NCBI RefSeq assembly: GCF_027947575.1
Contig: NZ_CP116256.1
Coordinates: 5,766,001 to 5,830,000 of the forward strand
Reading direction: 5' to 3'
DNA from: Streptomyces rubrogriseus
GTDB lineage: Bacteria > Actinomycetota > Actinomycetes > Streptomycetales > Streptomycetaceae
DNA: 64,000 nucleotides
In this document: one piece after another, positions 31,409 to 46,783 of the stretch
Numbering within the stretch: position 1 is the first letter of the stretch
Layout: each line of letters opens with the position of its first letter
Made by a program: the position numbers and the translations under genes
Notes under the pieces: model-generated
What the model was told of the DNA's origin: nothing
Databases searched by the model: none
Seen by the model: only the letters and a program-made list of their open reading frames with translations

Positions 31409-31993
31409 ATGGGTCGACACAAGCAGCCCGAGATCCGCGACCGCATCCTCGACGCCTGCGTCGACCACGCGCTCGCGCACGGGCTTCCCAACCGCCTGGA
31501 GCCGTTCGCGGCCGCGTCCGGCACGTCGGCCCGGATGCTCATCTACCACTTCGGGACCCGGGACGCGTTGCTGCGGGAGACCCTGCGGCGGGCACGGCGA
31601 CGTCAGCGCGACTTCTTCGGCGAACTGGTCTCCCCCCGGCCCGACGAGCCCTACCCGAGCACGCTGCGCCGAGCCTGGCGGGTCATGACCGGCCCGGCCG
31701 GCCGGCCCTACCTCACCATGTTCGGCAGACTCCGCGAGGATGCCGAGCAGCGGTTGTGGCCGGACTTCCGCCGCGAGTCCACCACGGACTGGCTGCGGCC
31801 GTTCGAGGAGGGCATGCGCAGTGTCGGCCGTCCCGAACTCGCCACGCTCGTACTGGCGGTCGTCCGCGGCCTCATCATGGACATCGAGACCACGGGCGAC
31901 GTGGCGAGAGCCGACCGGGCCTTCGAGGACTTTCTCGCCGCACTCGTTCTCGTCACCGGGACTCGGGCCCGCGACGCCGTGGGTGAGTCCTGA
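31409..31993 (+). CDS. TetR-family repressor
   Basis: 194 aa. The N-terminal helix-turn-helix spans ~10-55 (SGTSARMLIYHFGTRDALLRETL). The C-terminal ligand-binding helices are of no specific subclass I can name. It is divergent from the alpha/beta hydrolase and probably controls it and itself. It is followed after 39 nt by the convergent LacI gene. Confidence 0.9.
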   Translation: MGRHKQPEIRDRILDACVDHALAHGLPNRLEPFAAASGTSARMLIYHFGTRDALLRETLRRARRRQRDFFGELVSPRPDEPYPSTLRRAWRVMTGPAGRPYLTMFGRLREDAEQRLWPDFRRESTTDWLRPFEEGMRSVGRPELATLVLAVVRGLIMDIETTGDVARADRAFEDFLAALVLVTGTRARDAVGES

Positions 31994-32032: not shown

Positions 32033-33118
32033 TCAGGACCGGCGTGCCGCCGGGCCGTCGACCGCCGCCGTACTGGCGCGCACGACCAGCACGGGTTCGA
32101 CGGAGGCGGGCTCGGGGGCCGCGTCCGGGTCCGCGATGTGCCGCAGCAGGTGGGCGACCGCGAGGGCTCCCATCTCGGCGAACGGCTGGGCCACCGTGGT
32201 CAGTGAGGGCGAGCAGTACTCGGCGAGCGCGATGTCGTCGACCCCGACGACGGAGATGTCCCGCGGCACCCCGCGGCCGAGTTCGTGCAGGGCCCGGATC
32301 ACTCCGAAGGCCATCTCGTCGCTGGCCACGAACACTGCGGTGACGTCGGGGATCTTGCCCAGGACCAGGCCGTTGCGGTATCCGGAGGCGGGTGTCCAGT
32401 CCCCCTCCAGCACCGGTGGCACGGACAGTCCCGCCTCCTCGAGGGTGTCGCGCCAGCCGGCGCGGCGACTGGCCGCGTCGAGCCATTCCTGGGGGCCCGA
32501 CACGTGCCAGACGGTCTCGTGGCCCAGCTCGATCAGGTGCCGGGTCGCGAGCCTTGCCGCCAGGGCCTGGTCGACGGCGACGATCTCGGTGGCCGGTGTC
32601 CTCGACCCGTCGACGGTGACGGTCGGCACCGAGCGGGTGAGCCGCTCGATCCTGGGGCTCACGTGCACCAGCGGCACCGAGAGGATGACCCCCTCGACGT
32701 CCTGCTCCGCCAGCCGGGACAGCGCGCTCTCGATCGCCGCGGTGTCCAGGGACGCCGTGGCGGCGGTGCTGACCGCGTACCCGGCCTCGCGCGCCGCGGC
32801 CTCGATGCCGAAGACGAGGTTCGCGCGGGAGTAGAAGGTGGTCCGCAGCGTGACGACGCCGATCGTCCGGCTGCGCCCCGAGGACAGCATCCGCGCCGCG
32901 TTGTTCTTGCGGTAGCCCAGCTCCTCGACCGCGGCGAGCACCTTGGCACGGGTGGTGTGCTGGACGTTGGGATGGCCGGCCAGCGTACGGGAGACCGTCT
33001 GGGCGGATACCCCGGCGAGCCGGGCCACGTCGGCCATGCCGGGCTGCCGGGCGGCACCGTCGTCGGCCGTCCGCCTGCTCACGGGCGCCCCGTCGGCGGC
33101 CGGCGTCTCCGATGACAT
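32033..33118 (-). CDS. LacI-family repressor of the beta-galactosidase unit
   Basis: 361 aa. After a ~27-residue leader, the LacI helix-turn-helix reads MADVARLAGVSAQTVSRTLAG, followed by the hinge AARMLSSGRSRTIGVV. A periplasmic-binding-protein-like sensor occupies ~80-345. A 19-bp operator lies 82 bp upstream of its start and the identical sequence, inverted, precedes the GH35 gene. It should therefore repress both, with a galactoside as inducer. Confidence 0.93.
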   Translation of the reverse strand: MSSETPAADGAPVSRRTADDGAARQPGMADVARLAGVSAQTVSRTLAGHPNVQHTTRAKVLAAVEELGYRKNNAARMLSSGRSRTIGVVTLRTTFYSRANLVFGIEAAAREAGYAVSTAATASLDTAAIESALSRLAEQDVEGVILSVPLVHVSPRIERLTRSVPTVTVDGSRTPATEIVAVDQALAARLATRHLIELGHETVWHVSGPQEWLDAASRRAGWRDTLEEAGLSVPPVLEGDWTPASGYRNGLVLGKIPDVTAVFVASDEMAFGVIRALHELGRGVPRDISVVGVDDIALAEYCSPSLTTVAQPFAEMGALAVAHLLRHIADPDAAPEPASVEPVLVVRASTAAVDGPAARRS

Positions 33119-33490: not shown

Positions 33491-35278
33491 TCAGTCGAAG
33501 GTCTCGACGTACTCCTCCGACGGGCCGAGGTCGGGGCCCTCGCGCAGGGTGACGCGGTCGCCGAGGCGTTCGAGTTCCAGCACGGTGAGGGTGTTGTCGC
33601 CGGGGCGCAGCAGCGGACCGGGCAGGTAGAGCGTGCTCTGGGGGCCGATCTCCCAGTAGCGGCCGAGCAGGGTGTCGTTGACCCAGAGGAAGCCCTTGCC
33701 GAACCCGGGCAGGGCGACGAAGGCGTCCGCGGGCTCGGCCACCGGCAGGACGGCGGTGGCGAACCCGGCCCGGCCGTCCGAGGGGGCCGCCGCCGCGGCG
33801 CGTGCCGTGTCCCGCCCCGTCCACGCGTCGAGCGGCAGCGGACGCATCGTCCAGCCGTGCACCAGCCGGCGCTCCACCCGCACCCCGCCGAGGATGCCCT
33901 TGCCCTGGCCGAGCAGCGGGCCGTAGTTGATCCGTCCCTGGTTCTCCACCAGCAGCGCCAGCCGGACCCGTGCTCCGGTGCCGGTGACGGTGAACGAGGC
34001 GCTCTCGCGGTCCAGTACGGCGACGGGTGTGTCGTCGAGGAAGACCTGGGCGCGGTCGTGCAGCCCCGTGACGGTCACCTCGTGCTCCCCCGGCGGCAGC
34101 AGCGGCTCGGCCTCGTAGAGGACCAGGCCGGAGGCCAGGGACAGTTCCTCGAAGCTCAGCGGCAGCGGTGCGCTCACGGGCTCGGCCGTCGCCCGCAGGG
34201 CGTCGAGCAGGGCCGCCTGCCCGACGACCGGCAGGTCGCGGGGTGCCAGCAGCGGTGGGTCGGCGGGCAGCGGGCGCCGGGCAGCGGCGGGGTCGAGCGC
34301 GGTCAGCCTGTCCCGCAGGGCGAAGAACTTCGGGGTCAGGGCGCCGTTCTCGGCGATGGGGGCGTCCGAGTCGTAGCTGGTGACGGTGGGGCGGATGGTG
34401 CCGCCCTCGTGGTTGGCGCCCGCCCACAGTCCGAAGTTGGTGCCGCCGTGCGCCATGTAGAGGCTCACGGAGCCGCCCTCGTCGAGGATGCCGCCGAGGT
34501 CCTCGGCCGCGCTCGGGGCCGGCCGGACGTGGTGCTTGTCGCCCCAGTGGTCGAACCAGCCGTTCCAGAACTCGGCGCAGAAGAAGGGCTCTCCGGGCCG
34601 GCGGGAGCGCAGCAGCGCCGCGGCCCGGTCGGGGCGTGAGCCGAAGGTCGCCGCGGCCAGTTCGCCGGGCAGGGCACCGCCGTCCTGCATCAGCGGGGTC
34701 GGTCCGTCCGCGGTGTAGAGCAGTTCGGTGATGCCCCGGGCGACGAGGGCGTCCCGGATGTGGCGGACGTACGCGCGGTCGTCGCCGTAGCTGCCGTACT
34801 CGTTCTCGATCTGCACGGCCACGACCGGTCCGCCCCGGCCGGCCTGGAGTTCCGCGAGCCGCGGGACGAGCGCGTCGAACCAGCGGTCGACCGCTTCGAG
34901 GTAGGGGCCGTGGGAGGTGCGCAGCCGCATGCCGGGAGTGCCGGTCAGCCAGGCGGGCAGACCGCCGTTGTCCCACTCGGCGCAGATGTAGGGACCCGGC
35001 CGCACGACGACGTCCAGCCCCTCTTCCTGGGCGAGCCGGATGAACCGGGGCAGGTCGCGCGGGCCGTCGAAGCGGATGTCGCCCGCGGTGCGCTCGTGGA
35101 AGTTCCAGGGGACGTAGGTGTCGACCGCGTTCAGGCCGAGGGCGGCCAGCCGCCGGAGCCGGTCGGCCCAGTGCCCGGGGTGGACCCGGAAGTAGTGCAG
35201 CGAGCCCGCCAGCAGGCGGTGCGGGCGCCCGTTCCGCAGGAGGGTGCCGTCGGCGTAGGTGAGGGTGGATCGCTGCAC
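33491..35278 (-). CDS. GH35 beta-galactosidase
   Basis: 595 aa. It hydrolyses terminal beta-galactosides. The N-terminal GH35 TIM barrel (~5-320) has VRPGPYICAEWDNGGLP, the acid/base Glu in VQIENEYGSYG and the nucleophile Glu in FFCAEFWNGWFDHWG. C-terminal jelly-roll domains follow (~380-590; GKGFLWVNDTLLGRYWEIGP). There is no signal peptide, so it is probably cytoplasmic and dependent on an unseen sugar importer. A LacI operator lies 41 bp upstream. Confidence 0.95.
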   Translation of the reverse strand: MQRSTLTYADGTLLRNGRPHRLLAGSLHYFRVHPGHWADRLRRLAALGLNAVDTYVPWNFHERTAGDIRFDGPRDLPRFIRLAQEEGLDVVVRPGPYICAEWDNGGLPAWLTGTPGMRLRTSHGPYLEAVDRWFDALVPRLAELQAGRGGPVVAVQIENEYGSYGDDRAYVRHIRDALVARGITELLYTADGPTPLMQDGGALPGELAAATFGSRPDRAAALLRSRRPGEPFFCAEFWNGWFDHWGDKHHVRPAPSAAEDLGGILDEGGSVSLYMAHGGTNFGLWAGANHEGGTIRPTVTSYDSDAPIAENGALTPKFFALRDRLTALDPAAARRPLPADPPLLAPRDLPVVGQAALLDALRATAEPVSAPLPLSFEELSLASGLVLYEAEPLLPPGEHEVTVTGLHDRAQVFLDDTPVAVLDRESASFTVTGTGARVRLALLVENQGRINYGPLLGQGKGILGGVRVERRLVHGWTMRPLPLDAWTGRDTARAAAAAPSDGRAGFATAVLPVAEPADAFVALPGFGKGFLWVNDTLLGRYWEIGPQSTLYLPGPLLRPGDNTLTVLELERLGDRVTLREGPDLGPSEEYVETFD

Positions 35279-35337: not shown

Positions 35338-35509
35338 CCTCCCCTGATGCGGTCAGCAAGGCGGCATCGAGGGTGGCCGGGAGGACTCTGGCATCGCTAT
35401 CAGGATCCCCACGGCACACTCTCGATCTCCGGCACTTCAACCTCTCGATCGGGAACTTCCGTACAACACAAGGGCGTTGAGGCCGTTGCGGGGCTGAAGA
35501 GGAGTGGAC

Positions 35510-36190
35510 ATGACACGGGAGCGCGCGCGGGATCCGTGGCGGCTGCTGCTGATCGAGGACGACCGGGAACTGGTCCTCATGCTTTCCGACGTACTGCGGG
35601 ACGAGGGTTACGCGGTCGATGTGGCGACCGACGGCCAACGGGGCCTGCACCTCGGCCTCACCCGGCGCTACGACGTGTTCGTCGTCGACCGGCGGCTACC
35701 GGTGCTGGACGGCCTCGACCTGCTGGGCCGGCTGCGCACCCGCGCGGTCCGCACCCCGGCACTGATGCTGACCGCGATGGGCACCGTGCACGACCGGGTC
35801 GACGGCCTGGACGCCGGCGCCGACGACTACCTGGTGAAACCGTTCGAGCTGGACGAACTGGGCGCCAGACTACGGGCGTTGTGCCGGCGTTCCCTGGAGG
35901 GCGGTGACGTCCTGCGGATCGGTGCGGGCCGTCTGCACGTCGGGCGGCGCGAGGTGGAGTCCGCGGACGGCGAGCGGATCGCGCTCGCCGCACGGGAGTT
36001 CGCCCTGCTGTGGGTGCTGGCCTCGCACCCCGACGCCGTCCACACCCGGGCGGAGCTGCGCCGGCTGGTGTTCGAGGAGGCACCCGCCTCCTCCATCGTC
36101 GACACCTACGTCTACTACCTGCGCCGCAAGCTCGGCCGGCAGGTGGTGCGCACGGTGCACGGACTGGGCTACCGCCTGGGGGCGTTGTGA
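35510..36190 (+). CDS. OmpR-family response regulator
   Basis: 226 aa. ATG 35510 has AGAGGAG at 35498-35504; GTG 35504 lies inside that motif. The receiver has LLLIEDD, phospho-Asp in VFVVDRRLPV and the Lys in LVKPFEL. A winged helix (~135-222) ends VRTVHGLGYRLG. Its stop overlaps the GTG start of the kinase (GTGA). Confidence 0.95.
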   Translation: MTRERARDPWRLLLIEDDRELVLMLSDVLRDEGYAVDVATDGQRGLHLGLTRRYDVFVVDRRLPVLDGLDLLGRLRTRAVRTPALMLTAMGTVHDRVDGLDAGADDYLVKPFELDELGARLRALCRRSLEGGDVLRIGAGRLHVGRREVESADGERIALAAREFALLWVLASHPDAVHTRAELRRLVFEEAPASSIVDTYVYYLRRKLGRQVVRTVHGLGYRLGAL

Positions 36191-37473
36191 GCGCGTCGGC
36201 GTCCGGGGAGCGGGCGGCCGTCCACCGGGCCCGCCTGCGCGTCGCCGTGCTGACCGGCGTGATCATCACCCTGCTGGTCACCGTCGTCGGCGGGATCGCC
36301 GACACCGTCATGACGCGGGCGCAGAGCGACCAGGTGTGGCGGGAGCTGCGCTACGGCGCGGCGCGCGGCGACCTGTCCAGTCCGCCGGTGTGCACCTGGC
36401 TGTTCGCGCGCGGCGCGACGCCGTTGGCCAACGCCCCGGCGGGCTTCCCCGTGGAGAGCGACATGCGGCGGGTCGGCCGGACCCACGAGGCGGTGGAACG
36501 CACGGTGCGCCGCGACGACACCCGGTATCTGGTGCGTACGCAGGTCAGGGCGGACGGGAAGGTCGTACAGGCCGTGTTCGACCTCCGGTTCCAGCTGGCC
36601 GACCGCCGGCACCTGTGGTTCGCGCTGGGCGTCGCCGAGGTGGTGGGTCTGCTGGCCGCGGCCGTCACCGGGGTGGTCCTGGGGCGGCTCGCCGTGTCCC
36701 CGCTGGCCGAGGCGCTCACCCGGCAGCGCCGCTTCGTCACGGACGCCAGCCACGAGCTGCGCACCCCGGTCACCCAGGTGTACACGCGGGCGCAGCTGCT
36801 GGCGCGGCAGGCGGCGGCGCAGGACCTGCCCGCCCGGCACCGCGAGGGGCTGACGCGGCTGGTCGGCTCGGCCGGCCGGCTGGGCGAGGTGCTGGACGAC
36901 CTGCTGTTGTCCGCGAGCCTCGCGGCGGGCCCGGCGCGGCCTTCGGAGCACCGGCCGGTCGACCTGGCGGCGCTGGCCCGTGCGGCGGTCGCGGAGGAGG
37001 CGGACCGGGTGCGGGAGGGCGGTCTCACCGTCGCCGTGGACGGACCGCCGCGCCCCTTGTTCGTCGACGGTGTCGAGTCGGCGCTGCGCCGGGCCGTCGG
37101 GGAGCTGCTGTCCAACGCCGTCGGACACACGCCGCCGGGCGGGCGGATCGAGGTCGCCCTGGCACGGGTGCGCGGCACGGTCACGCTGACCGTCGCGAAC
37201 ACCGGGAAGGGCTTCGAACCCGCCGAGGCGGAACGCCTCTTCGAACGGTTCCACCGGGGCGGGTCCACCGGCCGGTACGGGCTGGGGCTGGCGCTGCTGC
37301 GGGAGGTCGTCACCCACCACGGCGGTACGGTCGCCGCGACCGGGCGTCCCGGACACGGCGCCCGGTTCGTCATCCGGCTCCCCCTGGGCGGTCCCCCGGC
37401 CGTCTCCGTCCCGCCGCCCCGGGGCCGGGCGCCCCGCTTCGTGCCGCGCCGGGTCAGGGCCGGGCGTACCTGA
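36187..37473 (+). CDS. HisKA sensor histidine kinase, partner of the OmpR regulator
   Basis: 428 aa from GTG 36187. TM1 (~17-38), extracytoplasmic loop (~40-140), TM2 (~143-165). HisKA H box DASHELRTPVTQV is intact. HATPase_c has N box ELLSNAVGHTPPGG and G box GRYGLGLALL. A recognisable HAMP domain is minimal. Its 3' end overlaps the convergent ammonia-lyase gene by 20 nt. It is the nearest intact signalling system to the 37.5-45.9 kb cluster. Confidence 0.93.
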   Translation: MSASASGERAAVHRARLRVAVLTGVIITLLVTVVGGIADTVMTRAQSDQVWRELRYGAARGDLSSPPVCTWLFARGATPLANAPAGFPVESDMRRVGRTHEAVERTVRRDDTRYLVRTQVRADGKVVQAVFDLRFQLADRRHLWFALGVAEVVGLLAAAVTGVVLGRLAVSPLAEALTRQRRFVTDASHELRTPVTQVYTRAQLLARQAAAQDLPARHREGLTRLVGSAGRLGEVLDDLLLSASLAAGPARPSEHRPVDLAALARAAVAEEADRVREGGLTVAVDGPPRPLFVDGVESALRRAVGELLSNAVGHTPPGGRIEVALARVRGTVTLTVANTGKGFEPAEAERLFERFHRGGSTGRYGLGLALLREVVTHHGGTVAATGRPGHGARFVIRLPLGGPPAVSVPPPRGRAPRFVPRRVRAGRT

Positions 37474-38989
37474 CCAGCAGGCGGGCGGCGGCCCGCACGT
37501 CCGAGTCCAGCGGGCGGTCCGGGTCGACCGGGGGGATCGCGTCGGCGAGAGCCTCCAGGAGGTCCCCGCACCGGGGTGCGGTGGGGCGGCGGGCTCCGAC
37601 GTGGGCGGCCTGGCGCAGGCCGAGGGCGAGCGACCCGCACAGCAGACCGAGCAGCTCCGCCGTGTCGTGGGCGCGCAGGGCCGCCTGGGTGCCGAACGGG
37701 ACGACGTCCTGGTTGTGCAGGTTCGTCGGCAGGCTCTGCATGCCGGCCGGGGTCGCGGCGCGGCGGATCTCCGCCACGAACGCGGTGGTGGCCAGCTGCA
37801 CGCCTTGGAGACCGTGCTGCACCCCGGGCTCGGGGGCGAGCATCGGCGGCAGCCCGCCGTTGCGGGCCGGGTCCACCAGGAGGTCCAGCTGGCGTTCGGC
37901 GAGGTTGCCGAGCTGGGCGGCGACGGAGGCGAGCAGGTCGGCGGCGAACGCGGCGGGCTGCCCGAAGAAGTTCCCGCCGTGCACGGCCTTCCCCTCCCCC
38001 GCGTCGTCGGTGCCGGAGCCCGTGCCGGGAGCGGGAAAGAACAGCGGGTTGTCGCTGACCCCGGCGAGGTCCGCGGCGACGACGCCGTCGACGTGACGCA
38101 GCGCGTCCTCGGCGGCGCCCAGCAGCTGCGGGGCGCAGCGGATGCTGTACGGCTCCTGCAGCGGCCGGGTGCCGGAGGGCGTGCCGCCCGCCAGGGTGCG
38201 CCGCATCCGGCCGCCCACGTCGACGGCGCCGGGGTGGCCGTAGGCCCGCAGCAGGTCGGCGTCGAGGAAGCCGGTGTCGCAGCCGAGGAGGTCGGTCAGC
38301 AGGCAGCTGAGCGCGGTGAGCGAGCGGTGCGCGGCGCGCACGGCGTCGAGGGCCAGCGCGGTGGCCGCGGTGGTGAGGGAGGTGCCGTTGACCAGGGCGA
38401 GCGCGTCGCGTCCGTCGAGGGCGAGGGGGCGCAGTCCGGCGGCGGTCAGCGCGTCGCCGGCCGGCATCCGGTCGCCGTCCAGGTAGGCGTGGCCCCGGCC
38501 GCGCAGGGCCTGGGTGGCGTAGGCGAGCGGGATGAGGTCGCCGCTCGCGCCGACGGAGCCGTAGCGGGGGACGGCGGGGGCGAAGGTGGTGGCGAACATC
38601 GCCGCGAGCCGGTCGACCACCTCGGCCGACACGCCCGAGAGCCCCTGGGCGAGGGAGCGGGTGCGCAGCAGCAGGGCGGCGCGCACGATCCCGGGCGGGA
38701 GGTCCGGTCCCTGGCCCGCGCCGAGGTGCGCCAGGGTGTTGTCGCACTGGTCGGCGTCGTCGGTGCGGCCGGCATAGCCGACGAGGGCGCCGAAGCCGGT
38801 GTCGGCGCCGTAGATCCGGCGGTCCGTGCCGCCGGGTCCGTGCCGCAGCGCGTGGAAGAGGCGGCGCCCGCGGTCGAGGCGGGCGCGGGCCTCCTCGTCC
38901 ACCGTGACGGTGAGGGGCTGCGCCGCGCGGGGCAGGACCGCGGGGTCCAGGGGGCCGGTGAGCGGGACGGTGTCCGTGGGTGTGAGCAC
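37454..38989 (-). CDS. Aromatic amino acid ammonia-lyase, tyrosine-ammonia-lyase-like
   Basis: 511 aa from GTG 38989; TTG 38998 would add three residues. The MIO prosthetic group forms from Ala-Ser-Gly in GSVGASGDLIPLAY (~residue 145). Other family motifs: YGADTGFGAL, ALVNGTS, EPYSIRCAPQ, HGGNFFGQP and NQDVVPFG. The substrate-selectivity pair aligns to NTLAHLGAG. His-Leu here matches Tyr-specific lyases (His89-Leu90 in Rhodobacter TAL), whereas HAL has Ser-His and plant PAL Phe-Leu. Predicted reaction: L-tyrosine to p-coumarate, or a tyrosine aminomutase. No hut genes are nearby. Its promoter shares a palindrome with the divergent operon. It overlaps the convergent kinase gene by 20 nt. Confidence 0.85.
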   Translation of the reverse strand: MLTPTDTVPLTGPLDPAVLPRAAQPLTVTVDEEARARLDRGRRLFHALRHGPGGTDRRIYGADTGFGALVGYAGRTDDADQCDNTLAHLGAGQGPDLPPGIVRAALLLRTRSLAQGLSGVSAEVVDRLAAMFATTFAPAVPRYGSVGASGDLIPLAYATQALRGRGHAYLDGDRMPAGDALTAAGLRPLALDGRDALALVNGTSLTTAATALALDAVRAAHRSLTALSCLLTDLLGCDTGFLDADLLRAYGHPGAVDVGGRMRRTLAGGTPSGTRPLQEPYSIRCAPQLLGAAEDALRHVDGVVAADLAGVSDNPLFFPAPGTGSGTDDAGEGKAVHGGNFFGQPAAFAADLLASVAAQLGNLAERQLDLLVDPARNGGLPPMLAPEPGVQHGLQGVQLATTAFVAEIRRAATPAGMQSLPTNLHNQDVVPFGTQAALRAHDTAELLGLLCGSLALGLRQAAHVGARRPTAPRCGDLLEALADAIPPVDPDRPLDSDVRAAARLLVRYARP

Positions 38990-38996
38990 ACCGGGC

Positions 38997-39044
38997 AACG
39001 TAGGCCGGGGATCTCAGAGCGCTCTGAAATCCCGTGGCTACCTT
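38997..39044. promoter_or_regulatory. Symmetric divergent promoter with TCAGAG-N2-CTCTGA operator
   Basis: A perfect 14-bp palindrome, TCAGAGCGCTCTGA (39014-39027), is centred between the two start codons. Eleven bp to its left (minus strand) is -10 TACGTT (39002-38997), and eleven bp to its right is -10 TACCTT (39039-39044). The palindrome occupies the -35 region of both promoters, so one regulator should switch both. The start codons follow the -10 boxes by 7 and 8 nt, implying leaderless or nearly leaderless mRNAs. The same module occurs at 45890-45920. Confidence 0.8.
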
Positions 39045-39052
39045 CCGTGGAC

Positions 39053-40636
39053 ATGAGCCACGACTGCCATGACTACCTCATCATCGGAGCGGGCCCCGCC
39101 GGCCTGCAACTCGCCTCCTTCCTGGAGCGGGACGGCGCGGACTACGTCGTCCTGGAGCGCGGCGGCGTGCCGGGCGCGTTCTTCACGCGCTTCCCCAGGC
39201 ACCGCAACCTGATCTCGAACAACAAGGTGCACACCGGGTACGACGACCCGGAGCTGCGGCTGCGGATGGACTGGAACTCGCTGCTGAGCGACGACCCGGA
39301 GCTGGTGTTCACCCGCTACAGTCCCCGCTACTTCCCGCCCGCCGACGACCTGGTGCGCTACCTGGCGGACTTCGCCGACCGGACCGGCGTGCGGGTGCGC
39401 TACGACACCGCGGTGCGGCACGTCACCCGCGACGCCGAGGGGTTCACCGTCACCGACCGGGGCGGGACGCGGTGGCGGGCGAGGCACCTGGTGGTCGCCA
39501 CCGGCATGCCGGTGCCGAACCTGCCGTCGATCCCGGGCGTCGAACTGGCCGAGCGCTACGACACGATCGACACCGATCCGGCGGGCTACACCGACCAGCG
39601 GGTGCTGATCATCGGGCGGGGCAACTCGGCGTTCGAGACCGCCGAGAACCTGATGGAGAACGCGGCGGTCATCCACGTGGCCGGCTCGGGCTCGCTGCGC
39701 ATGGCCTGGCGGACGCACTACGTGGGGCACCTGCGGGCGGTCTACAACAACTTCCTGGACAGCTACCAGCTCAAGTCCCAGAACGCCCTCCTGGACGGCC
39801 GGGTGCAGGACATCCGGCGGGACGCGGACGGCTACCGGGTCCGGTTCGCCTTCGAGCGCAACGAGGACGTCGTCAAGGACCTGCGCTACGACCGGGTGAT
39901 CGTGGCGACCGGGTTCCGCTGCGACGTCTCGCTCTTCGACGAGACCTGCACGCCCGACCTGATGGTCGACGGCCGCTTCCCGGAGCTGACGCCCCTGAGC
40001 GAGTCGGTCAACGTGCCCGGCCTGTACTTCGCCGGGACGCTGATGCAGGGCCGGGACTTCCGGAAGGCCACGACCGGCTTCATCCACGGCTTCCGCTACA
40101 TGGTGCGGGCCCTGCACCGGGGACTGCGCCAGCGCCACCACCAGGAGCCGTGGCCCGCGACGGAGTTGGGCGACACCACGGAGCGGGCCGTGGACGCCGT
40201 GATCGGCCGGGTCAACCGGTCCTCGGCCCTGTGGCAGCAGTTCGCGGTCCTCGGCGACCTGCTCACGCTCGCCCCGGACGGCACCATGCGCTACGCCGAG
40301 GAGGTCCCGGTCGCCCATGTGCCGGACGCCGTCGGCGCGGGGGACTTCGGGGACGTCGAGGCGCACGCCGTGATCACCCTGGAGTACGGCAAGGACCACG
40401 ACCTCGTCGACCCCTTCGACGTGAGCGCCGGCCGCGGGTCCCAGTACGACGTCTCCGGGCTGGACGGCCGCTATCTGCACCCGGTCGTGCGCTGGTACCG
40501 GCAGGGCGCGTTCGTCGCCGAGCACCACCTGGCGGCGAACCTGGAGAACGAGTGGGACAGCGAGGAGTACCACCGCGCCCCGCTGCGGGCGTTCCTCGCC
40601 GCCCGGCGCGACGCGGCGGCCCCGGTGGCGCCGTGA
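39053..40636 (+). CDS. FAD-dependent oxidoreductase, FOXRED2/flavin-monooxygenase-like
   Basis: 527 aa from ATG 39053. FAD-binding GAGPAGLQLASFLE lies at the N-terminus; a second Rossmann motif (LIIGRGNSAFETAE, ~185) binds NAD(P)H. Later motifs are VIVATGFRCDVS and LYFAGTLMQGRDFRKATTGFIHG. The architecture resembles two-dinucleotide-binding flavin monooxygenases. A ~120-residue C-terminal extension is unassigned. It is the first gene of a coupled run (next start overlaps its stop, GTGA). The substrate is probably the lyase product or a derivative (inference). Confidence 0.88.
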   Translation: MSHDCHDYLIIGAGPAGLQLASFLERDGADYVVLERGGVPGAFFTRFPRHRNLISNNKVHTGYDDPELRLRMDWNSLLSDDPELVFTRYSPRYFPPADDLVRYLADFADRTGVRVRYDTAVRHVTRDAEGFTVTDRGGTRWRARHLVVATGMPVPNLPSIPGVELAERYDTIDTDPAGYTDQRVLIIGRGNSAFETAENLMENAAVIHVAGSGSLRMAWRTHYVGHLRAVYNNFLDSYQLKSQNALLDGRVQDIRRDADGYRVRFAFERNEDVVKDLRYDRVIVATGFRCDVSLFDETCTPDLMVDGRFPELTPLSESVNVPGLYFAGTLMQGRDFRKATTGFIHGFRYMVRALHRGLRQRHHQEPWPATELGDTTERAVDAVIGRVNRSSALWQQFAVLGDLLTLAPDGTMRYAEEVPVAHVPDAVGAGDFGDVEAHAVITLEYGKDHDLVDPFDVSAGRGSQYDVSGLDGRYLHPVVRWYRQGAFVAEHHLAANLENEWDSEEYHRAPLRAFLAARRDAAAPVAP

Positions 40637-41721
40637 CCCTCCGCGAGCTGCACGACGCGGCGCGCGCGGTGCTCGACCCGGTCCACTACGACTACGTGGC
40701 GGGCGGCGCGGGCGAGGAGCGCGCGCTGGCCGCCAACGCGCGGGCGTTCGACCGGTACGCGCTGCTGCCCCGGGTGCTGAGCGGCGCCACGCGGCGGGAG
40801 ACGGCCGTGGACCTGCCGGGCGCCCGGGGCGCGGCGCCGGTGGTGGTCGCGCCGACCGCGTTCCACCGGCTGCTGCACCCGGACGGGGAGCGGGCCACGG
40901 CGCGGGCCGCCGCGGCCGAGGGCGCCGTCCTGGTGACGGGCGTCGCCGCGACGACGGCGGTGCCGGCCGTCGTCGCGGCGGCCCGCGAGGCGGCGCCGGA
41001 CCCGGCGGTGTGGTTCCTGCTCTACCCGCACCCGCGCCGGGAGGTCACCGAGGCGCTGGTGCGGCGGGCCGAGGGGGCCGGCTGTACGGCCCTGGTCGTC
41101 ACCGCCGACTCGCCGCGCTTCGGCCGCCGCACCCGGGACCTGCGCAACGGGTTCGACGACCTGCCGCCCGGCTACGCGGCGGAGAACATGCGCGACCTGC
41201 CCGGTACCCCGCCGGGCACCCTCACCGACATCCCGATGCACCCGGCGGCGTCCTGGCGGGACTTCGCCGAGACGGTGGGCGCGACCTCGCTGCCCGTGTG
41301 GGTCAAGGGGGTGCTCCACCCGGCGGACGCGCGGCTGGCCGTGGAGCACGGCGCGGCGGGGGTGATCGTCTCCAACCACGGCGGCCGTCAGTGCGACAGC
41401 GCCGCGGCGTCCGTCGACTGCCTGCCCGCGGTCGTCGAGGCGGTCGCCGGTGCGGTGCCGGTCCTCCTGGACGGCGGGGTGCGCCGGGGCGGTGACGTGG
41501 CCGTCGCCCTCGCGCTGGGCGCGGCGGCCGTCGGCGTGGGGCGCCCCGTGCTGTGGGGGCTGGCGGCCGAGGGCGAGGCGGGCGTCCGTCGGGTGCTGCG
41601 GACGCTGCTCGACGAGTACGACCACACGCTCGCCCTGTGCGGCGGGCGCCGCAACGCCGATCTGAGCGCCGACATGGTCGTCCGCCAGGGCGCGGCGTGG
41701 CCGGGGGAGGCGGCGTGGTGA
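40633..41721 (+). CDS. FMN-dependent alpha-hydroxy acid oxidase/dehydrogenase
   Basis: 362 aa, GTG start overlapping the upstream stop. It is a TIM barrel of the glycolate/lactate/4-hydroxymandelate oxidase family. Active-site residues are present: Tyr in HYDYVAGGAG, Tyr in LLYPHP, Lys in VWVKGV, His and Arg in SNHGGRQ. The usual LDG after SNHGGRQ reads CDS, so substrate specificity may be unusual. It would oxidise a 2-hydroxy acid to a 2-oxo acid. It is coupled to the P450 gene (GTGA). Confidence 0.9.
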   Translation: MTLRELHDAARAVLDPVHYDYVAGGAGEERALAANARAFDRYALLPRVLSGATRRETAVDLPGARGAAPVVVAPTAFHRLLHPDGERATARAAAAEGAVLVTGVAATTAVPAVVAAAREAAPDPAVWFLLYPHPRREVTEALVRRAEGAGCTALVVTADSPRFGRRTRDLRNGFDDLPPGYAAENMRDLPGTPPGTLTDIPMHPAASWRDFAETVGATSLPVWVKGVLHPADARLAVEHGAAGVIVSNHGGRQCDSAAASVDCLPAVVEAVAGAVPVLLDGGVRRGGDVAVALALGAAAVGVGRPVLWGLAAEGEAGVRRVLRTLLDEYDHTLALCGGRRNADLSADMVVRQGAAWPGEAAW

Positions 41722-43094
41722 GCGGCACCCGGCGGCCCGCATCGTGGTGGCTGCCGCGCACCGTGGTGGCGTTGCGGGTGCGCGTCTTCGAGAAGGTCAA
41801 CGGCGACCGGGTGGTGACCCTGCCCAACGCCGCCCACGGCCCCGAGGTGTTCGAGCGGGTGTACGCCCATCCCGCGGTGAACGGCCGGAGCGCGGGCGCC
41901 AGCCTGTCCGACCTGTTCTGGTACTGGCTCGCGCCGGGTTCCGAGGTGCACCAGGAGCATCTGGAGCCCGGTGAACGCTACGACGAGGTCGCCGCGACGA
42001 CGCGGCGGATCCTCGCCGGCTCGTCCGCCGGACTCGCCGAGGCGGCCGGGCGGGCCGTCGCCGACGTACTGGACACGGTCCCGCTCACCCGTATCAGCCT
42101 GGTGCGGCTGCGGGACCTGCTCATGCCCGCCTGGGCGGCCTTCGCCTACGAGCTGGTCTTCCGCCGGCCGTGCCCGCCGCACGCCCGGGACCTGATCACC
42201 GCACACGCCGACGACGTGATCACCGCCCTCAAGTGCACCGGCCTGCGGCACCCGCGACGCCGGGCCCGGCTGACGGCGTACCTCGGCGAGCGGATCGCCG
42301 CCGGGGACGTGCCGCACCGCCTCCCGGCCTCCCTCACCCCGTCCGAGCAGGCGCTGTACCTGCAAGGGACGTTCTTCAACACGGCGGTCGTCCAGCTGTC
42401 CGAGGCGACCGCGCACGTGCTGCTCGCCCTGGCCCGCCATCCGCGGGTGCAGCACCGCCTGTCGGAACGCCCGGACGACGACCGGTACCTCGCGCACGTG
42501 ATCGACGAGACGCTGCGGCTGTACCCGCTGTTCGGGATCGCCCACCGCATCACCACCGGTGAGGTGCCGCTCGACGACACGACGGTGCTGCCCGCCGGGT
42601 CCGTGGTGTGCTTCAGCTACCCCGACTACCAGGCCACGGGCCACGAACGGCCGGGCGAGTTCGACCCGGACCGCTGGTCCGGCCCCGCGGCCAGGCGGGG
42701 CCCGTACATTCCGTTCGGGGTGGCGGCGAACCGTCCCTGCCCCGCGTGGCGCGTGTCCCCGATCGTCCTGCGCGTCGCCGTGCGCGAGGTGCTGACCCGG
42801 TTCCGGCTCGACTCGACGGCCTCGCACACCCGCTCCAACCCGCACCGCGCGCCGTGTCTGCTGATCCCTCGCGGCCTCGCCCCCGGCCGGCGCCGGCTGG
42901 CGGCCCTGCGCCGGTTCGTCCGGCTGCGGGACGGGGTGGAGGACGTCACCCGGGGCGTACGGCAGCTGGTGCTCGGCACGGTCATGGTGCTGCACGCCCG
43001 GCGGCTGCGCCCGGCGGCCCGGTACTTCGAGGAACCGCGCTCCGGACACTGTCCGGTCGCTCACCACACGCAGAGCAAGGAGAGCAACGGATGA
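41718..43094 (+). CDS. Cytochrome P450 with atypical heme and I-helix motifs
   Basis: 458 aa, GTG start overlapping the oxidase stop. The K-helix ExxR is present (DETLRLYPLFG). The heme-ligand segment reads PFGVAANRPCPAW, not FxxGxxxCxG: the Phe is one residue further from Cys, and the Gly at -4 and +2 are both Ala. The I helix (GTFFNTAVVQLSEAT) lacks the (A/G)Gx(D/E)T oxygen-activation motif. A ~60-residue Arg-rich C-terminal extension follows. It may be a non-classical P450 (isomerase, peroxygenase or lyase). No ferredoxin gene is adjacent. Stop overlaps the antiporter ATG (ATGA). Confidence 0.85.
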   Translation: MSGTRRPASWWLPRTVVALRVRVFEKVNGDRVVTLPNAAHGPEVFERVYAHPAVNGRSAGASLSDLFWYWLAPGSEVHQEHLEPGERYDEVAATTRRILAGSSAGLAEAAGRAVADVLDTVPLTRISLVRLRDLLMPAWAAFAYELVFRRPCPPHARDLITAHADDVITALKCTGLRHPRRRARLTAYLGERIAAGDVPHRLPASLTPSEQALYLQGTFFNTAVVQLSEATAHVLLALARHPRVQHRLSERPDDDRYLAHVIDETLRLYPLFGIAHRITTGEVPLDDTTVLPAGSVVCFSYPDYQATGHERPGEFDPDRWSGPAARRGPYIPFGVAANRPCPAWRVSPIVLRVAVREVLTRFRLDSTASHTRSNPHRAPCLLIPRGLAPGRRRLAALRRFVRLRDGVEDVTRGVRQLVLGTVMVLHARRLRPAARYFEEPRSGHCPVAHHTQSKESNG

Positions 43095-44353
43095 GCACCA
43101 CGGAACTGGGCCCCGCCTTCTTCCTCGCGGTCGTCGTGATCCTCGTCGTCTGCCGGGTCGTCGGACGCCTGCTGCAACTCGTCGGGCAGCCACCGGTCGT
43201 CGGGGAGATGCTCGCGGGCGTGGTCCTGGGCCCGTCGGTCCTGGGCGCGCTGCTGCCCGGCGTCGAGTCGGCCCTCTTCCCCACCGAACTGCGTCCGGTC
43301 CTCTACGTGGTGGGACAGATCGGGCTGGTGGCGTTCATGTTCCACGTCGGCTGGGACTTCCGCGCGGACCGGCTCCGGGGGGTCGCCCGGTCAGCCGGGC
43401 TGGTGTCGGCGGCGGGGCTGGTGGTGCCGATGGTGCTCGGGGTGGTGCTCATCGCCGCCGTCGGCGAACGCACCGGCGCGCTCGCCCCGGACGTGTCTCT
43501 GACGGTGTCCGGCCTGTTCGTCGGCGTCGCGCTGGCGGTGACGGCGTTCCCGATGCTGGCCAGGATCATCGCCGAACGGAACCTGGCGAAGACGCGGTTC
43601 GGCGCCCTGTCCCTCGGGGCCGGCGCGGTCGACGACGCCGCGGCCTGGGTCCTGCTCGCCGGGGTCTTCGGCATCGCGGGCGGCAGCGCCGGGAAGGTCT
43701 CGGTGGCCGTCGCCGGGGGCCTCGGTCTCATCGCGGTACTGGCCGTGGGCGTGCGGCTGCGCGACCGTACGGCGCTGCTCGCCGAGCGCACGGGTGCCGA
43801 CCAGCTGCTGCTCGCCCTCGTCGGCGTGCTGTTCCTGATCGCCTGGTACACCGACGTCATCGGGCTGTACGCGGTGTTCGGCGCGTTCAGTCTCGGCGTC
43901 GTCTTCCCCCGCTCGGAGCGGCTGGACCGCACGGTCGGGACCCTCCAGCCGGTGGGCGCGGTCTTCGTTCCGCTGTTCTTCACGTACTCGGGGCTGAACA
44001 CCGACTTCACCCTGCTGGGTTCGGGTCCGGTCCTGTTCTTCACCGCGGGGTGCGTGGTGGTCGCGGTCGTCGGCAAGTTCGGTGCCTGCTGGCTCGCCGC
44101 GCGGGCGGCGGGCGAGCCCAACCGGGTCGCCCTGCGGGTGGGGGCGCTGATGAACGCGCGCGGACTGATGCAGCTGGTCGCCCTCAACCTGGGGCTCGCG
44201 GCGGGGATCGTGACGCAGGCGATGTTCAGCGCCCTGGTGGTGGTCGCCATCACGACGACCGTGATGGCGACGCCGCTGCTGGCCCTGCTGGACCGGCGGG
44301 ACCGGGTGCGCGCCGGTCGTCCGCGGGAGGCCGTCGCCGTGGGCGGCCGGTGA
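43091..44353 (+). CDS. CPA2-family cation/proton antiporter
   Basis: 420 aa, 12-13 TM helices, no C-terminal RCK domain. Family motifs: QPPVVGEMLAGVVLGPSVLG and GAVDDAAAWVLL, with the ion-binding Asp pair. Similar antiporters occur in natural-product clusters and are thought to support export or resistance. It is the last gene of the coupled four-gene run and ends in a palindromic terminator shared with the ligase gene. Confidence 0.9.
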   Translation: MSTTELGPAFFLAVVVILVVCRVVGRLLQLVGQPPVVGEMLAGVVLGPSVLGALLPGVESALFPTELRPVLYVVGQIGLVAFMFHVGWDFRADRLRGVARSAGLVSAAGLVVPMVLGVVLIAAVGERTGALAPDVSLTVSGLFVGVALAVTAFPMLARIIAERNLAKTRFGALSLGAGAVDDAAAWVLLAGVFGIAGGSAGKVSVAVAGGLGLIAVLAVGVRLRDRTALLAERTGADQLLLALVGVLFLIAWYTDVIGLYAVFGAFSLGVVFPRSERLDRTVGTLQPVGAVFVPLFFTYSGLNTDFTLLGSGPVLFFTAGCVVVAVVGKFGACWLAARAAGEPNRVALRVGALMNARGLMQLVALNLGLAAGIVTQAMFSALVVVAITTTVMATPLLALLDRRDRVRAGRPREAVAVGGR

Positions 44354-44358
44354 CCGGG

Positions 44359-44384
44359 GACCGGCCGGACCGGTCCGGCCGGTC
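44359..44384. terminator. 26-bp perfect palindrome between convergent genes
   Basis: Bases 44359-44384 are an exact palindrome (starting GACCGGCC, centre 44371/44372). It begins 6 nt after the antiporter stop and touches the ligase stop codon. It would serve both transcripts. Confidence 0.65.
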
Positions 44385-45846
44385 AAGTCCCCCGCGCCAG
44401 CCGCCGCTTGTCCGGCTTCCCGGCGGCGGTGAGCGGCACCTCGTCGATGACGGTCAGGCGCGTCGGCGCGCAGGCCTCGCCCAGCCGCGCCGCCACCAGC
44501 GCGCGCAGGTCGTCGAGAGCGGGTACGCGCCCGGCCGTGGGGACGACGAAGGCGTGCACGGCCTCCCCCGTGGCGTCGTCGGGCACGGCGACGACGTACG
44601 CCTCCATCACCGCCGGGTGGCGGGCGAGCAGTCGCTCGATGGGACCGGCGTAGTGCACGTTGGCGTCGACGATGACCACGTCCCGGATGCGTCCCGAGAG
44701 CCACAGCCTGCCCCGGGCGTCGAGACTCCCGAGGTCCCGCGTGCGGACCCAGCCGTCCACGAACACCTCGTCACTGAGCGCGGGCTGCCCCCAGTACCCG
44801 GCACCCTGCGAGGGGGTGCGGACGAAGATCTCCCCCTCGGTGCCGGCCGGGACGGGGCGGCCGGAGGGTCCCCGGACCTCCAGGTCGACGGGCGGTACGC
44901 CGAGCGAGCCGGGCGGGTCGGCGGGCGTGGCCATGGAGATCATGCCGGTCTCGGTCTGTCCGTACCCGTGGAAGACGACCGGGCCGAGCACCTGCGCGGC
45001 CTCGCGCGCCCGGGCCGGTTCCAGCGGCGAGCCGGAGACCATGAGCGCGCGCAGGCCACCGAGATCGGCGGGCGCGGAACGCAGCTCCGTCACGAGCCGG
45101 TTCAGCCGCCCGACCGTGATGACGCTCGCGGTCGCCCGGTGCCGCACGAGGGCCCCGGGGAGGTCCGGCGGGTCGGCGGAGACCAGGACGCCGCCGGCGG
45201 CGAGTGCGAGCAGGCCGTACTCGAGCATCACCTGGCTGGCCAGGGTCCCGAAGACCAGGAACCGGTCCAGTCGGCCCGCCAGTTCCCGGACCGCCGGCGG
45301 CCAGTCCCGCGGCCGCAGCGCCCAGGCCGCCGTCATCGCCTCGTACGTCTGGGCACACGCCTTGGGAACGCCGGTGCTGCCGCTGGTGTGGATGAGCCGG
45401 GCGACGTCCTTCGGCCGGGCCGGGACGCGGGGCCGCAGACCGTCGTCGGGCGCCGCGAGCAGCTCGTCGAGCGGCAGGACGGCCCCAGGTGGCCGGAGGT
45501 CCGTTCCGCCCGGTGCGCCGGACCGGTCCGTGACCGTGACCGCGACCTCGGCGTCCCGCAGCAGGGCCGCACGCTGGTGGTCCGTCATGCCGGGCCGTAC
45601 GCCGACGACGCGGGCTCCGACGGTGTACGCGGCGATGACGGCGGCGAAGGCCTCCGGGCCGACGCCGAGCAGCAGGGCCAGGCCGCGGCCCGGCCCGACG
45701 CCGTGCTGCCGCAGGGCGGCCGCCACCCGCCGGGTCATGCCGAGCAGGTGCCGTCCGCTCACCTCCCGGCCGTCGTGCTCGAAGACCGTGCGGTCGCCCG
45801 CCGCGTCGAGGAGGTCGAGGACCGCACCGGGGAACTGTTCCGTCAT
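44383..45846 (-). CDS. AMP-forming acyl-CoA synthetase / acyl-adenylating ligase
   Basis: 487 aa, ANL superfamily. Motif A3 is HTSGSTGVPKACAQT, A5 is HGYGQTETG, A7-A8 is GWVRTRDLG...SGRIRDVV, and the catalytic Lys of A10 is in PLTAAGKPDK. There is no carrier-protein domain. It should activate a carboxylic acid as adenylate and transfer it to CoA or an amine. In this cluster p-coumarate or a derived aryl acid is the natural candidate (inference). Its promoter carries the same palindrome module as the lyase and the oxidoreductase. Confidence 0.88.
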   Translation of the reverse strand: MTEQFPGAVLDLLDAAGDRTVFEHDGREVSGRHLLGMTRRVAAALRQHGVGPGRGLALLLGVGPEAFAAVIAAYTVGARVVGVRPGMTDHQRAALLRDAEVAVTVTDRSGAPGGTDLRPPGAVLPLDELLAAPDDGLRPRVPARPKDVARLIHTSGSTGVPKACAQTYEAMTAAWALRPRDWPPAVRELAGRLDRFLVFGTLASQVMLEYGLLALAAGGVLVSADPPDLPGALVRHRATASVITVGRLNRLVTELRSAPADLGGLRALMVSGSPLEPARAREAAQVLGPVVFHGYGQTETGMISMATPADPPGSLGVPPVDLEVRGPSGRPVPAGTEGEIFVRTPSQGAGYWGQPALSDEVFVDGWVRTRDLGSLDARGRLWLSGRIRDVVIVDANVHYAGPIERLLARHPAVMEAYVVAVPDDATGEAVHAFVVPTAGRVPALDDLRALVAARLGEACAPTRLTVIDEVPLTAAGKPDKRRLARGT

Positions 45847-45889
45847 GGCGCTCCTTCACGAGACCGGTTGACCGCACACCACCGGCCGG

Positions 45890-45920
45890 ACGCTAACGGC
45901 GCGGTATCAGAGGACTCTGA
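45890..45920 (-). promoter_or_regulatory. Ligase promoter with TCAGAG-N2-CTCTGA operator
   Basis: TCAGAGGACTCTGA (45907-45920) is followed on the minus strand by an 11-nt spacer (45906-45896) and -10 TAGCGT (45895-45890). Geometry and half-sites are identical to the divergent promoter at 38997-39044. The transcript would have a ~38-nt leader with GGAG before ATG 45846. Confidence 0.8.
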
Positions 45921-46048: not shown

Positions 46049-46783
46049 TCAGCAGGCGCCGAGGTCCTCCCAAACCCCCCATTCGCCGGTGGTGCCGGGC
46101 TCCTCTCCGGTCACCCACCACTTGGCACGCCAGGTGTGGCCGTCGTGGGCGACGGTCTCCCCGCCGTTGTAGACACTCCCGGCGCTCCAGGCTCCCGCGA
46201 CGCAGTCGCCGGGCTGGTCGCCGCCACCGTCGTCACCACCGCCGTCGTTTCCACCGCCGTCGTTTCCACCGCCGATGTTGACGTCGATGCAGGCGTAGAA
46301 GGCGTTGGCGGTGTCGGCGATGTTCCAGACCGCGAGAACCTTCTGCCGCCCGCTGAACCCGCCGAAGTCCAGCTGGTGGCTGACCGACGCGGGCGGCAGG
46401 GCGCCGTGCCCGTCGAACTGGGCGATCCTCTGGTCGCCGATGAAGTACTGCCAGTTGCTGGTGGCGTGCCGGGCCTCGATGGTCCACGTGAAGGTGTGCG
46501 TGGTGCCGATCGGTGTGACCCGCCAGCCCTTGCTGTCGTCGTCCAGATCGGCCCACCGGGCGTCTCCGCCACTGCAGTTGCGCAGCCCCTTCGGACCTTC
46601 GACGCTCGCCGGTTCCCACTTGATCTGACCGCACTGCACCACGCGGTTGGCGCACTGGTCCTGTCGGCTCCCCGGCGAGACCACCCAGCCGTGGGCGCTC
46701 GCGGTGGGCGCCGGCAGACTCAGGGCCACCACGGGAGCGACCAGCGCTCCCACGGCGGCGGCCACTCGTCTTTTCATGCGCAT
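46049..46783 (-). CDS. AA10 lytic polysaccharide monooxygenase with CBM5/12, chitin-active
   Basis: 244 aa. The signal peptide ends ASA with cleavage before His (HGWVVSPGSRQ), leaving the N-terminal copper His. The second brace His is in IEARHATSNWQYF. A Gly/Asn/Asp-rich linker (~180-197) leads to a C-terminal CBM5/12 (NGGETVAHDGHTWRAKWW). The enzyme oxidatively cleaves crystalline chitin (or cellulose) outside the cell. Twin DasR-type sites 81-112 bp upstream support chitin control. Confidence 0.93.
   Translation of the reverse strand: MRMKRRVAAAVGALVAPVVALSLPAPTASAHGWVVSPGSRQDQCANRVVQCGQIKWEPASVEGPKGLRNCSGGDARWADLDDDSKGWRVTPIGTTHTFTWTIEARHATSNWQYFIGDQRIAQFDGHGALPPASVSHQLDFGGFSGRQKVLAVWNIADTANAFYACIDVNIGGGNDGGGNDGGGDDGGGDQPGDCVAGAWSAGSVYNGGETVAHDGHTWRAKWWVTGEEPGTTGEWGVWEDLGAC

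Follow-up and report, generated by a model that had tools for sequence, protein, structure and literature searches.

The window analyzed here is a stretch of 64,000 nucleotides (nt) from Streptomyces rubrogriseus (contig NZ_CP116256.1). It carries a two-component system, consisting of a response regulator (RR) and a sensor histidine kinase (HK), and next to it a cluster of six genes with two copies of a palindromic operator. The features of this locus are as follows.

35504..36190, + strand: OmpR-type response regulator (RR), the proposed reader of both operators
36187..37473, + strand: sensor histidine kinase (HK; HisKA and HATPase_c), conserved beside the RR
37454..38989, - strand: aromatic amino acid ammonia-lyase (PF00221), a probable tyrosine ammonia-lyase (TAL), aligned to 2o6y
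38997..39002, - strand: lyase promoter, -10 box TACGTT, spaced 11 nt from operator 1 and followed after 7 nt by the GTG start
39014..39027, no strand: operator 1, TCAGAGCGCTCTGA, common to two divergent promoters; its outer arms are conserved (approximately 39010-39031)
39039..39044, + strand: oxidoreductase promoter, -10 box TACCTT, spaced 11 nt from operator 1 and followed after 8 nt by the ATG start
39053..40636, + strand: FAD/NAD(P) oxidoreductase (OXR; PF13738)
40633..41721, + strand: FMN-dependent alpha-hydroxy-acid oxidase-like enzyme (FMN; PF01070)
41718..43094, + strand: cytochrome P450 (PF00067); the start may be 41763
43091..44353, + strand: CPA2-type cation:proton antiporter (PF00999; TIGR00932 below its cut-off)
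44383..45846, - strand: AMP-forming acyl/aryl-CoA ligase (PF00501 and PF13193)
45856..45882, - strand: eight-codon relic reading frame, located where relatives start a second oxidoreductase gene (OXR2); 11 of 20 positions equal the OXR2 start consensus, compared to about 5 in shuffles
45890..45895, - strand: ligase promoter, -10 box TAGCGT, spaced 11 nt from operator 2
45907..45920, no strand: operator 2, TCAGAGGACTCTGA

A first-pass annotation of this DNA had reported the two palindromes and had proposed that they take the place of the -35 element. Both palindromes were confirmed in the window sequence, as was the distance of exactly 11 nt between a palindrome and each of the three TANNNT boxes (TACGTT, TACCTT, and TAGCGT); at operator 2, a box is present on the ligase side only. 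Judged by its orthologs, the lyase starts with the GTG at 38989, 7 nt past the -10 box, and not with the mechanically called TTG at 38998. If the first transcribed base lies at a start codon 7 nt past the -10 box, then the palindrome would occupy approximately -38 to -25, which agrees with the proposed replacement of the -35 element. Both operators are inverted repeats, not the tandem repeats of 11-base-pair (bp) period that are typical of the OmpR/PhoB family. The rightward chain OXR-FMN-P450-antiporter (39053-44353) is linked by 4-nt overlaps, and the earlier claim that all six genes are controlled jointly, which comparison with relatives supports, relies on the co-transcription that we infer from these overlaps.

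How rare is this arrangement in the host? The host's genome (one contig of 8,411,861 bases) was searched, with reversed patterns serving as controls. The palindrome TCAGAGNNCTCTGA occurs in exactly two exact copies in the whole genome, both of them at the reported operators. Allowing for one mismatch added four places, none of which has a TANNNT at 11 nt; the reversed control pattern had no occurrence with up to one mismatch. The composite TCAGAGNNCTCTGA-N11-TANNNT, with up to three mismatches, gave 16 matches: three that were perfect, i.e., the three promoters, and 13 with three mismatches (control: 14). The palindrome is thus not frequent in this genome, where the regulon as defined by the operator is three promoters. 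When the window was scanned with a weight matrix (score > 5), these three promoters were again the only ones returned, with no weaker site before the RR, HK, or antiporter genes. Direct-repeat sites were also sought in this genome and were found at chance level (eight with one mismatch vs. seven in the control, and no exact copy).

To gauge conservation, genome contigs of relatives were scanned with the oxidoreductase, which yielded 46 loci, or 47 with the window. An operator lies beside the start of the lyase, OXR, OXR2, or ligase gene in 36 of these 47 loci. Promoter sites were selected by palindrome and gene position, not by -10 box. Ninety-eight promoters were counted in this way (34 lyase, 33 OXR, 26 OXR2, and 5 ligase); the count leaves out a two-mismatch palindrome near the kinase start in locus L047 and a second site in L030, which precedes an OXR2 remnant and has TAGCGT at 11 nt. 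A TANNNT stands exactly 11 nt from the palindrome at 98/98 promoters and at none of the other offsets (4 to 25) in any of them. All 98 have an ATG or GTG 5-8 nt past the -10 box, a position that predicts leaderless transcripts; the cluster promoters are probably leaderless. The palindrome is often longer in relatives (AATC-TCAGAG-NN-CTCTGA-GATT). The operator is hence conserved in front of orthologous genes, and the comparison argues for an operator/-10 module shared by the window's three promoters, as originally suggested. We also compared 29 Streptomyces loci with an exact palindrome (genomes G004, G152, G169, G229, and G299 left out): 15/15 loci with the box at 11 nt have the cluster genes, vs. 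0/14 of those without the box. The bare palindrome elsewhere in Streptomyces is apparently due to chance.

The counterpart of the ligase promoter in most relatives is the promoter of OXR2, a gene that was lost in the window's clade. In this clade (the window, L007, L008, and L009), the start codon at the ligase promoter is that of the OXR2 relic, with 10-12 of 20 start positions kept (about 5 in shuffles). L030 has a shortened OXR2 copy. Other loci vary in different ways. The single operator of L038 (8490-8525, Labedaea) is flanked on either side by a TANNNT at 11 nt; the left box points into the kinase gene and would be either an antisense promoter or what is left of a divergent gene since lost. 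Two reduced clusters, L218 (genome G022) and L219 (G185), have kept the lyase, OXR2, and ligase genes along with their operators; the OXR-FMN-P450-transporter operon was not found in either, and the regulator-kinase pair of L218 is damaged. In ten further loci (L039-L046, L048, and L049), a related cluster has its ligase gene divergent from OXR-FMN-P450; it is without lyase, regulator, or operator, and the antiporter is present in 8/10.

Which protein reads the operator? The first-pass annotation had anticipated one dedicated regulator and had named the OmpR system at 35.5-37.5 kilobases (kb) as the nearest candidate. The RR is a protein of 228 amino acids comprising a receiver (PF00072, 8.2e-25) and a Trans_reg_C domain (PF00486, 1.9e-16) only. 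In the rows shown of a 35-sequence alignment, the receiver has the motifs DD, DR(R)LP, LTA, and KPF; these contain what we take to be the residues that matter in a functional receiver, namely the acidic pair, the phospho-acceptor Asp, the Thr, and the Lys. The HK gene overlaps that of the RR, and the HK was found in all 35 RR loci. (The kinase had seemed to be missing where a transporter of the MFS type replaces the antiporter; this was a gene-calling artefact, as tblastn found the kinase there.) Of the 36 operator loci, 35 encode the pair, the exception being L024, a contig of 3.4 kb; it is encoded in 0/11 loci without an operator (L039-L046, L048, L049, and L052). Three loci, L038, L047, and L050, match the RR-less ones in divergence (OXR approximately 60%), yet have kept both the operator and RR-HK; in L047 and L050, the operator is kept although the pair sits at the other, far end of the operon. 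Among 392 Streptomyces genomes, the RR was detected at E <= 1e-50 in 29, with an identity of at least 80% in 21 and of 58-62% in eight. All 21 genomes of the former group have an operator with its box at the cluster (18 exact, G032 with one mismatch, and G191 and G222 with two). Clustering of the genes around the 47 loci revealed no other regulator gene conserved with the operator. These patterns of co-inheritance support a single dedicated regulator, and they make the nearby OmpR system the best-supported candidate for the reader.

The RR subfamily (threshold E <= 1e-50) was then followed through 296 genomes of the class; the 49 RR loci that were compared include duplicates of the same genome. 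The strict composite is present in 12/296 genomes, all 12 of which are among the 45 that bear the RR subfamily. Nine of the 12 belong to another genus (g37), in which the composite precedes a PGA_cap-type gene, with an ATG 6-7 nt past the -10 box in 9/9. This gene was identified by Pfam in the four copies scanned and by similar sequence in the remaining ones; the four scanned copies also have a Peptidase_M15 domain. The g37 loci concerned are L098-L106 and L112-L117. Neither a TAL-cluster gene nor an RR was found within the six 20-kb stretches around the g37 composite. The g37 palindrome/-10 module suggests a cell-envelope target of a related regulator.

The top RR of the 12 g37 genomes searched shows 55-58% identity. 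All 12 have the helix VDTYVYYLRRKLG; the 12 more distant OmpR paralogs that were read (L137-L148) have other helices, and in a second subfamily member of genome G569 (L136) the helix is changed. Near the RR start in 12/12 g37 RR loci is the direct repeat TCTGA-N6-TCTGA, oriented to the divergent neighbor gene; none of the 12 paralog loci has half-site repeats. In 18 further RR loci without the cluster (346 kb), direct repeats with a gap (g) of 6 occurred 16 times (10 loci), those with g=17 in five loci, and one with g=11 once; at the other 15 gaps they never occurred. The g=17 repeats are the outer members of triple sites. Inverted repeats in these loci had g=4 only (two loci). Across 22 loci (the 18 plus four g17 clusters), a site is found in 14/15 with the recognition helix YVYYLR, compared to 1/7 with a changed helix; the exceptions are L213 (intact helix without a site) and L198 (changed helix with a site). 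The g17 clusters have RR-HK at the operon end and no lyase; direct repeats precede their ligase gene, with TACCGT at 11 nt in 3/4, and the second g17 repeat, before OXR2, has CAACAC at 11 nt. No one -10 rule could be fitted to the direct-repeat sites, as the sequences at 11 nt were mostly AACCAT/AACGAT in g37, ACGGCT or similar in the cma-type clusters described below, and TACCGT in g17. The window palindrome presents this half-site in inverted form; elsewhere in the subfamily, the half-site appears to be used as an 11-bp direct repeat.

We propose that the RR (35504-36190) binds the palindrome, is switched by the HK, and activates the three promoters by filling the place of the -35 element; from the sequence comparisons, we put the probability of this reading at roughly 80%. 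An RR dimer would cover the -35 place, centered at approximately -31.5 for a start codon 7 nt past the -10 box. Switched by the HK, presumably through phosphorylation, it would help RNA polymerase onto the TANNNT 11 nt away by sigma adaptation, a mode of action known from AfsR. Operator 1, being symmetric, could drive both divergent promoters from one site, that of the lyase on the left and that of OXR-FMN-P450-antiporter on the right; operator 2 would serve the ligase. The outcome would be a single on-switch for six genes.

How does this arrangement compare to known systems? Its promoter geometry resembles activation by PhoB and AfsR. The 22-bp afs box of AfsR is centered at -29.5 and engages sigma region 4, with 8 bp between its 3' repeat and the -10 element (PMC10936776). 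The window's extended palindrome is also 22 bp long, lies over the -35 position, and ends 7 nt from the -10 box (8 bp for AfsR), and the DNA-binding domain is of the OmpR type in both cases. It is because of this resemblance that we favor activation by sigma adaptation. However, in the SARPs, to which AfsR belongs, an N-terminal OmpR-type domain precedes a BTA domain, a receiver is absent, and the sites are direct repeats, whereas the window's RR consists of Response_reg and Trans_reg_C only; with no BTA domain found, membership of the RR in the SARPs was rejected. PhoB and PhoP share with the window's system a receiver, a winged helix, and a cognate kinase. PhoB sites overlap the -35 element (PMC3348028), and the PhoP site of M. 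tuberculosis has a 7-bp motif and a 4-bp spacer (PMC4832192), which add up to the 11-bp half-site period seen near the related regulators. Unlike theirs, the half-sites in this cluster form inverted rather than tandem repeats, with a symmetric site common to two divergent promoters. Palindromic sites have been documented for CusR, CopR, and CzcR (PMC11195947): these regulators are OmpR-type as well, with palindromes that are N2-centered, one of them common to divergent operons, and with very small regulons; the motif and the target genes differ from those of the window. Membership in this group, which the N2-centered 22-bp palindrome might suggest, was not borne out (TIGR01387 score of 147.1 vs. 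a cut-off of 279.2). Because such palindromes exist, an inverted site for the RR is unusual, not unprecedented, and it does not exclude the RR from the OmpR/PhoB family.

Titles and abstracts of the literature searched for the cluster, for CTCTGA with a response regulator in Actinobacteria, and for avenalumic acid with a response regulator do not describe this system, most subscription papers being outside that search's reach; it is apparently undescribed so far. A CTCTGA in PMC10433416 proved, in the portion available, to be part of a primer.

Several observations weigh against the proposal. A 2016 paper holds that every known OmpR/PhoB site is a direct repeat (PMC4832192), and the window's operators are inverted. 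Direct-repeat sites elsewhere are without TANNNT at 11 nt, save for the three g17 ligase sites. The strict composite is missing from 33 of the 45 RR-bearing genomes of the class, and an exact site from 7 of the 18 cluster-less RR loci, one of which (L213) has an intact helix. No exact half-site pair was present in the 300 bp before the RR in any of 35 TAL-type loci; autoregulation was therefore not seen there. Most of the RR-less loci belong to one divergent clade; since the sampled loci are related and the clades unevenly sampled, the counts are not independent events. As for the palindrome itself, its count at up to two mismatches is not significant in the window alone (two found; shuffle mean of 1.39). 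The significance of the operator comes instead from its exact genome-wide count, the closeness of the two sites, and their conservation.

As the main rival, we consider repression: the same RR would bind the palindrome, covering the -35 position until a signal frees the promoter. The overlap of the palindrome with that position is compatible with this notion, and the accessible text of PMC11195947 reports that Pseudomonas CopR represses from a palindrome from which CusR activates. However, the exact 11-nt spacing in 98/98 promoters, its occurrence on both sides of one symmetric site, and the want of an evident -35 element fit a protein-dependent promoter, and a plain repressor has no need of a fixed spacing. 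We regard repression as improbable. Still harder to credit is a regulator encoded elsewhere, e.g., of the TetR, MarR, or LysR kind, that binds the palindrome with RR-HK as a mere conserved neighbor. Short palindromes overlapping -35 are presumably typical of such proteins, and the window contains a LacI gene (32033-33118) nearby as well as a TetR-like one (31409-31993; its Pfam match is weak, below cut-off). But the gene clustering found no other regulator gene conserved with the operator, and related RRs of other genera, without the enzyme cluster, again have the half-site close by, its presence tracking the RR helix. That the matching sites reflect chance or functionless shared descent, as the 14 chance-like palindromes among the 29 exact Streptomyces ones and the insignificant window-only scan might suggest, can be practically dismissed given the 98/98 spacing, the conservation across genera whose gene order is rearranged, and a genome count that equals the control save for three sites.

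What might activation of the six genes by the RR bring about? The Ala-Ser-Gly (ASGDL) that forms the 4-methylideneimidazole-5-one (MIO) group, as well as AHLGAG, is present in 33/33 clustered lyases. The best-scoring NCBIfam models for the lyase are those of histidine ammonia-lyase, all below cut-off. In an alignment with 2o6y, the tyrosine lyase of R. sphaeroides, its His-Leu corresponds to His89-Leu90, a pair that we take to be the signature of tyrosine selectivity. The enzyme thus looks tyrosine-specific, and because of this match p-coumarate is the likely first product. The six genes probably turn tyrosine into p-coumarate and then into a modified product. The fourth gene of the rightward operon differs among relatives: an MFS transporter replaces the antiporter in L010-L017, L019, L021, L035, and L037, and the antiporters of L020, L028, L029, L031, L032, and L051 are only 40-42% identical. 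The transporter slot is therefore exchangeable.

A distant branch of RR-HK adjoins cma-type clusters in 6/8 Streptomyces genomes examined (L210, L211, L212, L215, L216, and L217). The gene order in these six is LysR, MFS, FMN reductase, aldolase, dehydroquinate-synthase-II type, ligase, and ketosynthase; the cma-type genes are 77-100% identical among the six, and their families were scanned in L210. This order is that of the p-coumarate cma cluster of Kutzneria albida (Table 1 of PMC10777205), for which the accessible text of that paper lists a LysR regulator and no two-component system. CTCTGA direct repeats precede the cmaG-like gene in all six, as a triple in 5/6. Unlike the cma cluster, the window has the lyase route and none of the genes for 3-amino-4-hydroxybenzoic acid (3,4-AHBA). 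The presence of one RR subfamily beside two unrelated p-coumarate routes suggests, without showing, that the kinase's signal is a hydroxycinnamate; for the g37, g17, and other loci, no tie to p-coumarate is known.

Taken further, these data allow for a more speculative model, which we offer tentatively and think rather doubtful as a whole: one RR subfamily would read the same half-site both as an 11-bp tandem and as a palindrome, the palindrome would be a two-way sigma adapter at leaderless divergent promoters, and the HK would sense p-coumarate or a related hydroxycinnamate, the system being wired to both the lyase and the cma-type 3,4-AHBA routes.

For this two-component system, the sequence alone predicts a binding code, delimits a closed regulon of three promoters, and points to a probable pathway. 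Inverted and direct half-sites occur in one and the same subfamily, and those arranged as a palindrome stand at a fixed distance from the -10 box, which amounts to a natural experiment on how OmpR-type dimers meet RNA polymerase, and one that concerns actinobacterial promoters without a -35 element. The operator may also offer a handle for turning on a conserved cluster.

Regarding the surroundings, the kinase and lyase genes are convergent, and their 3' ends overlap by 20 bases (37454-37473). Upstream of the two-component system lie a GH35 beta-galactosidase gene (33491-35278) and the LacI-family regulator gene mentioned above. Past operator 2, a lytic polysaccharide monooxygenase (LPMO_10 and CBM_5_12) is encoded on the - strand at 46049-46765.

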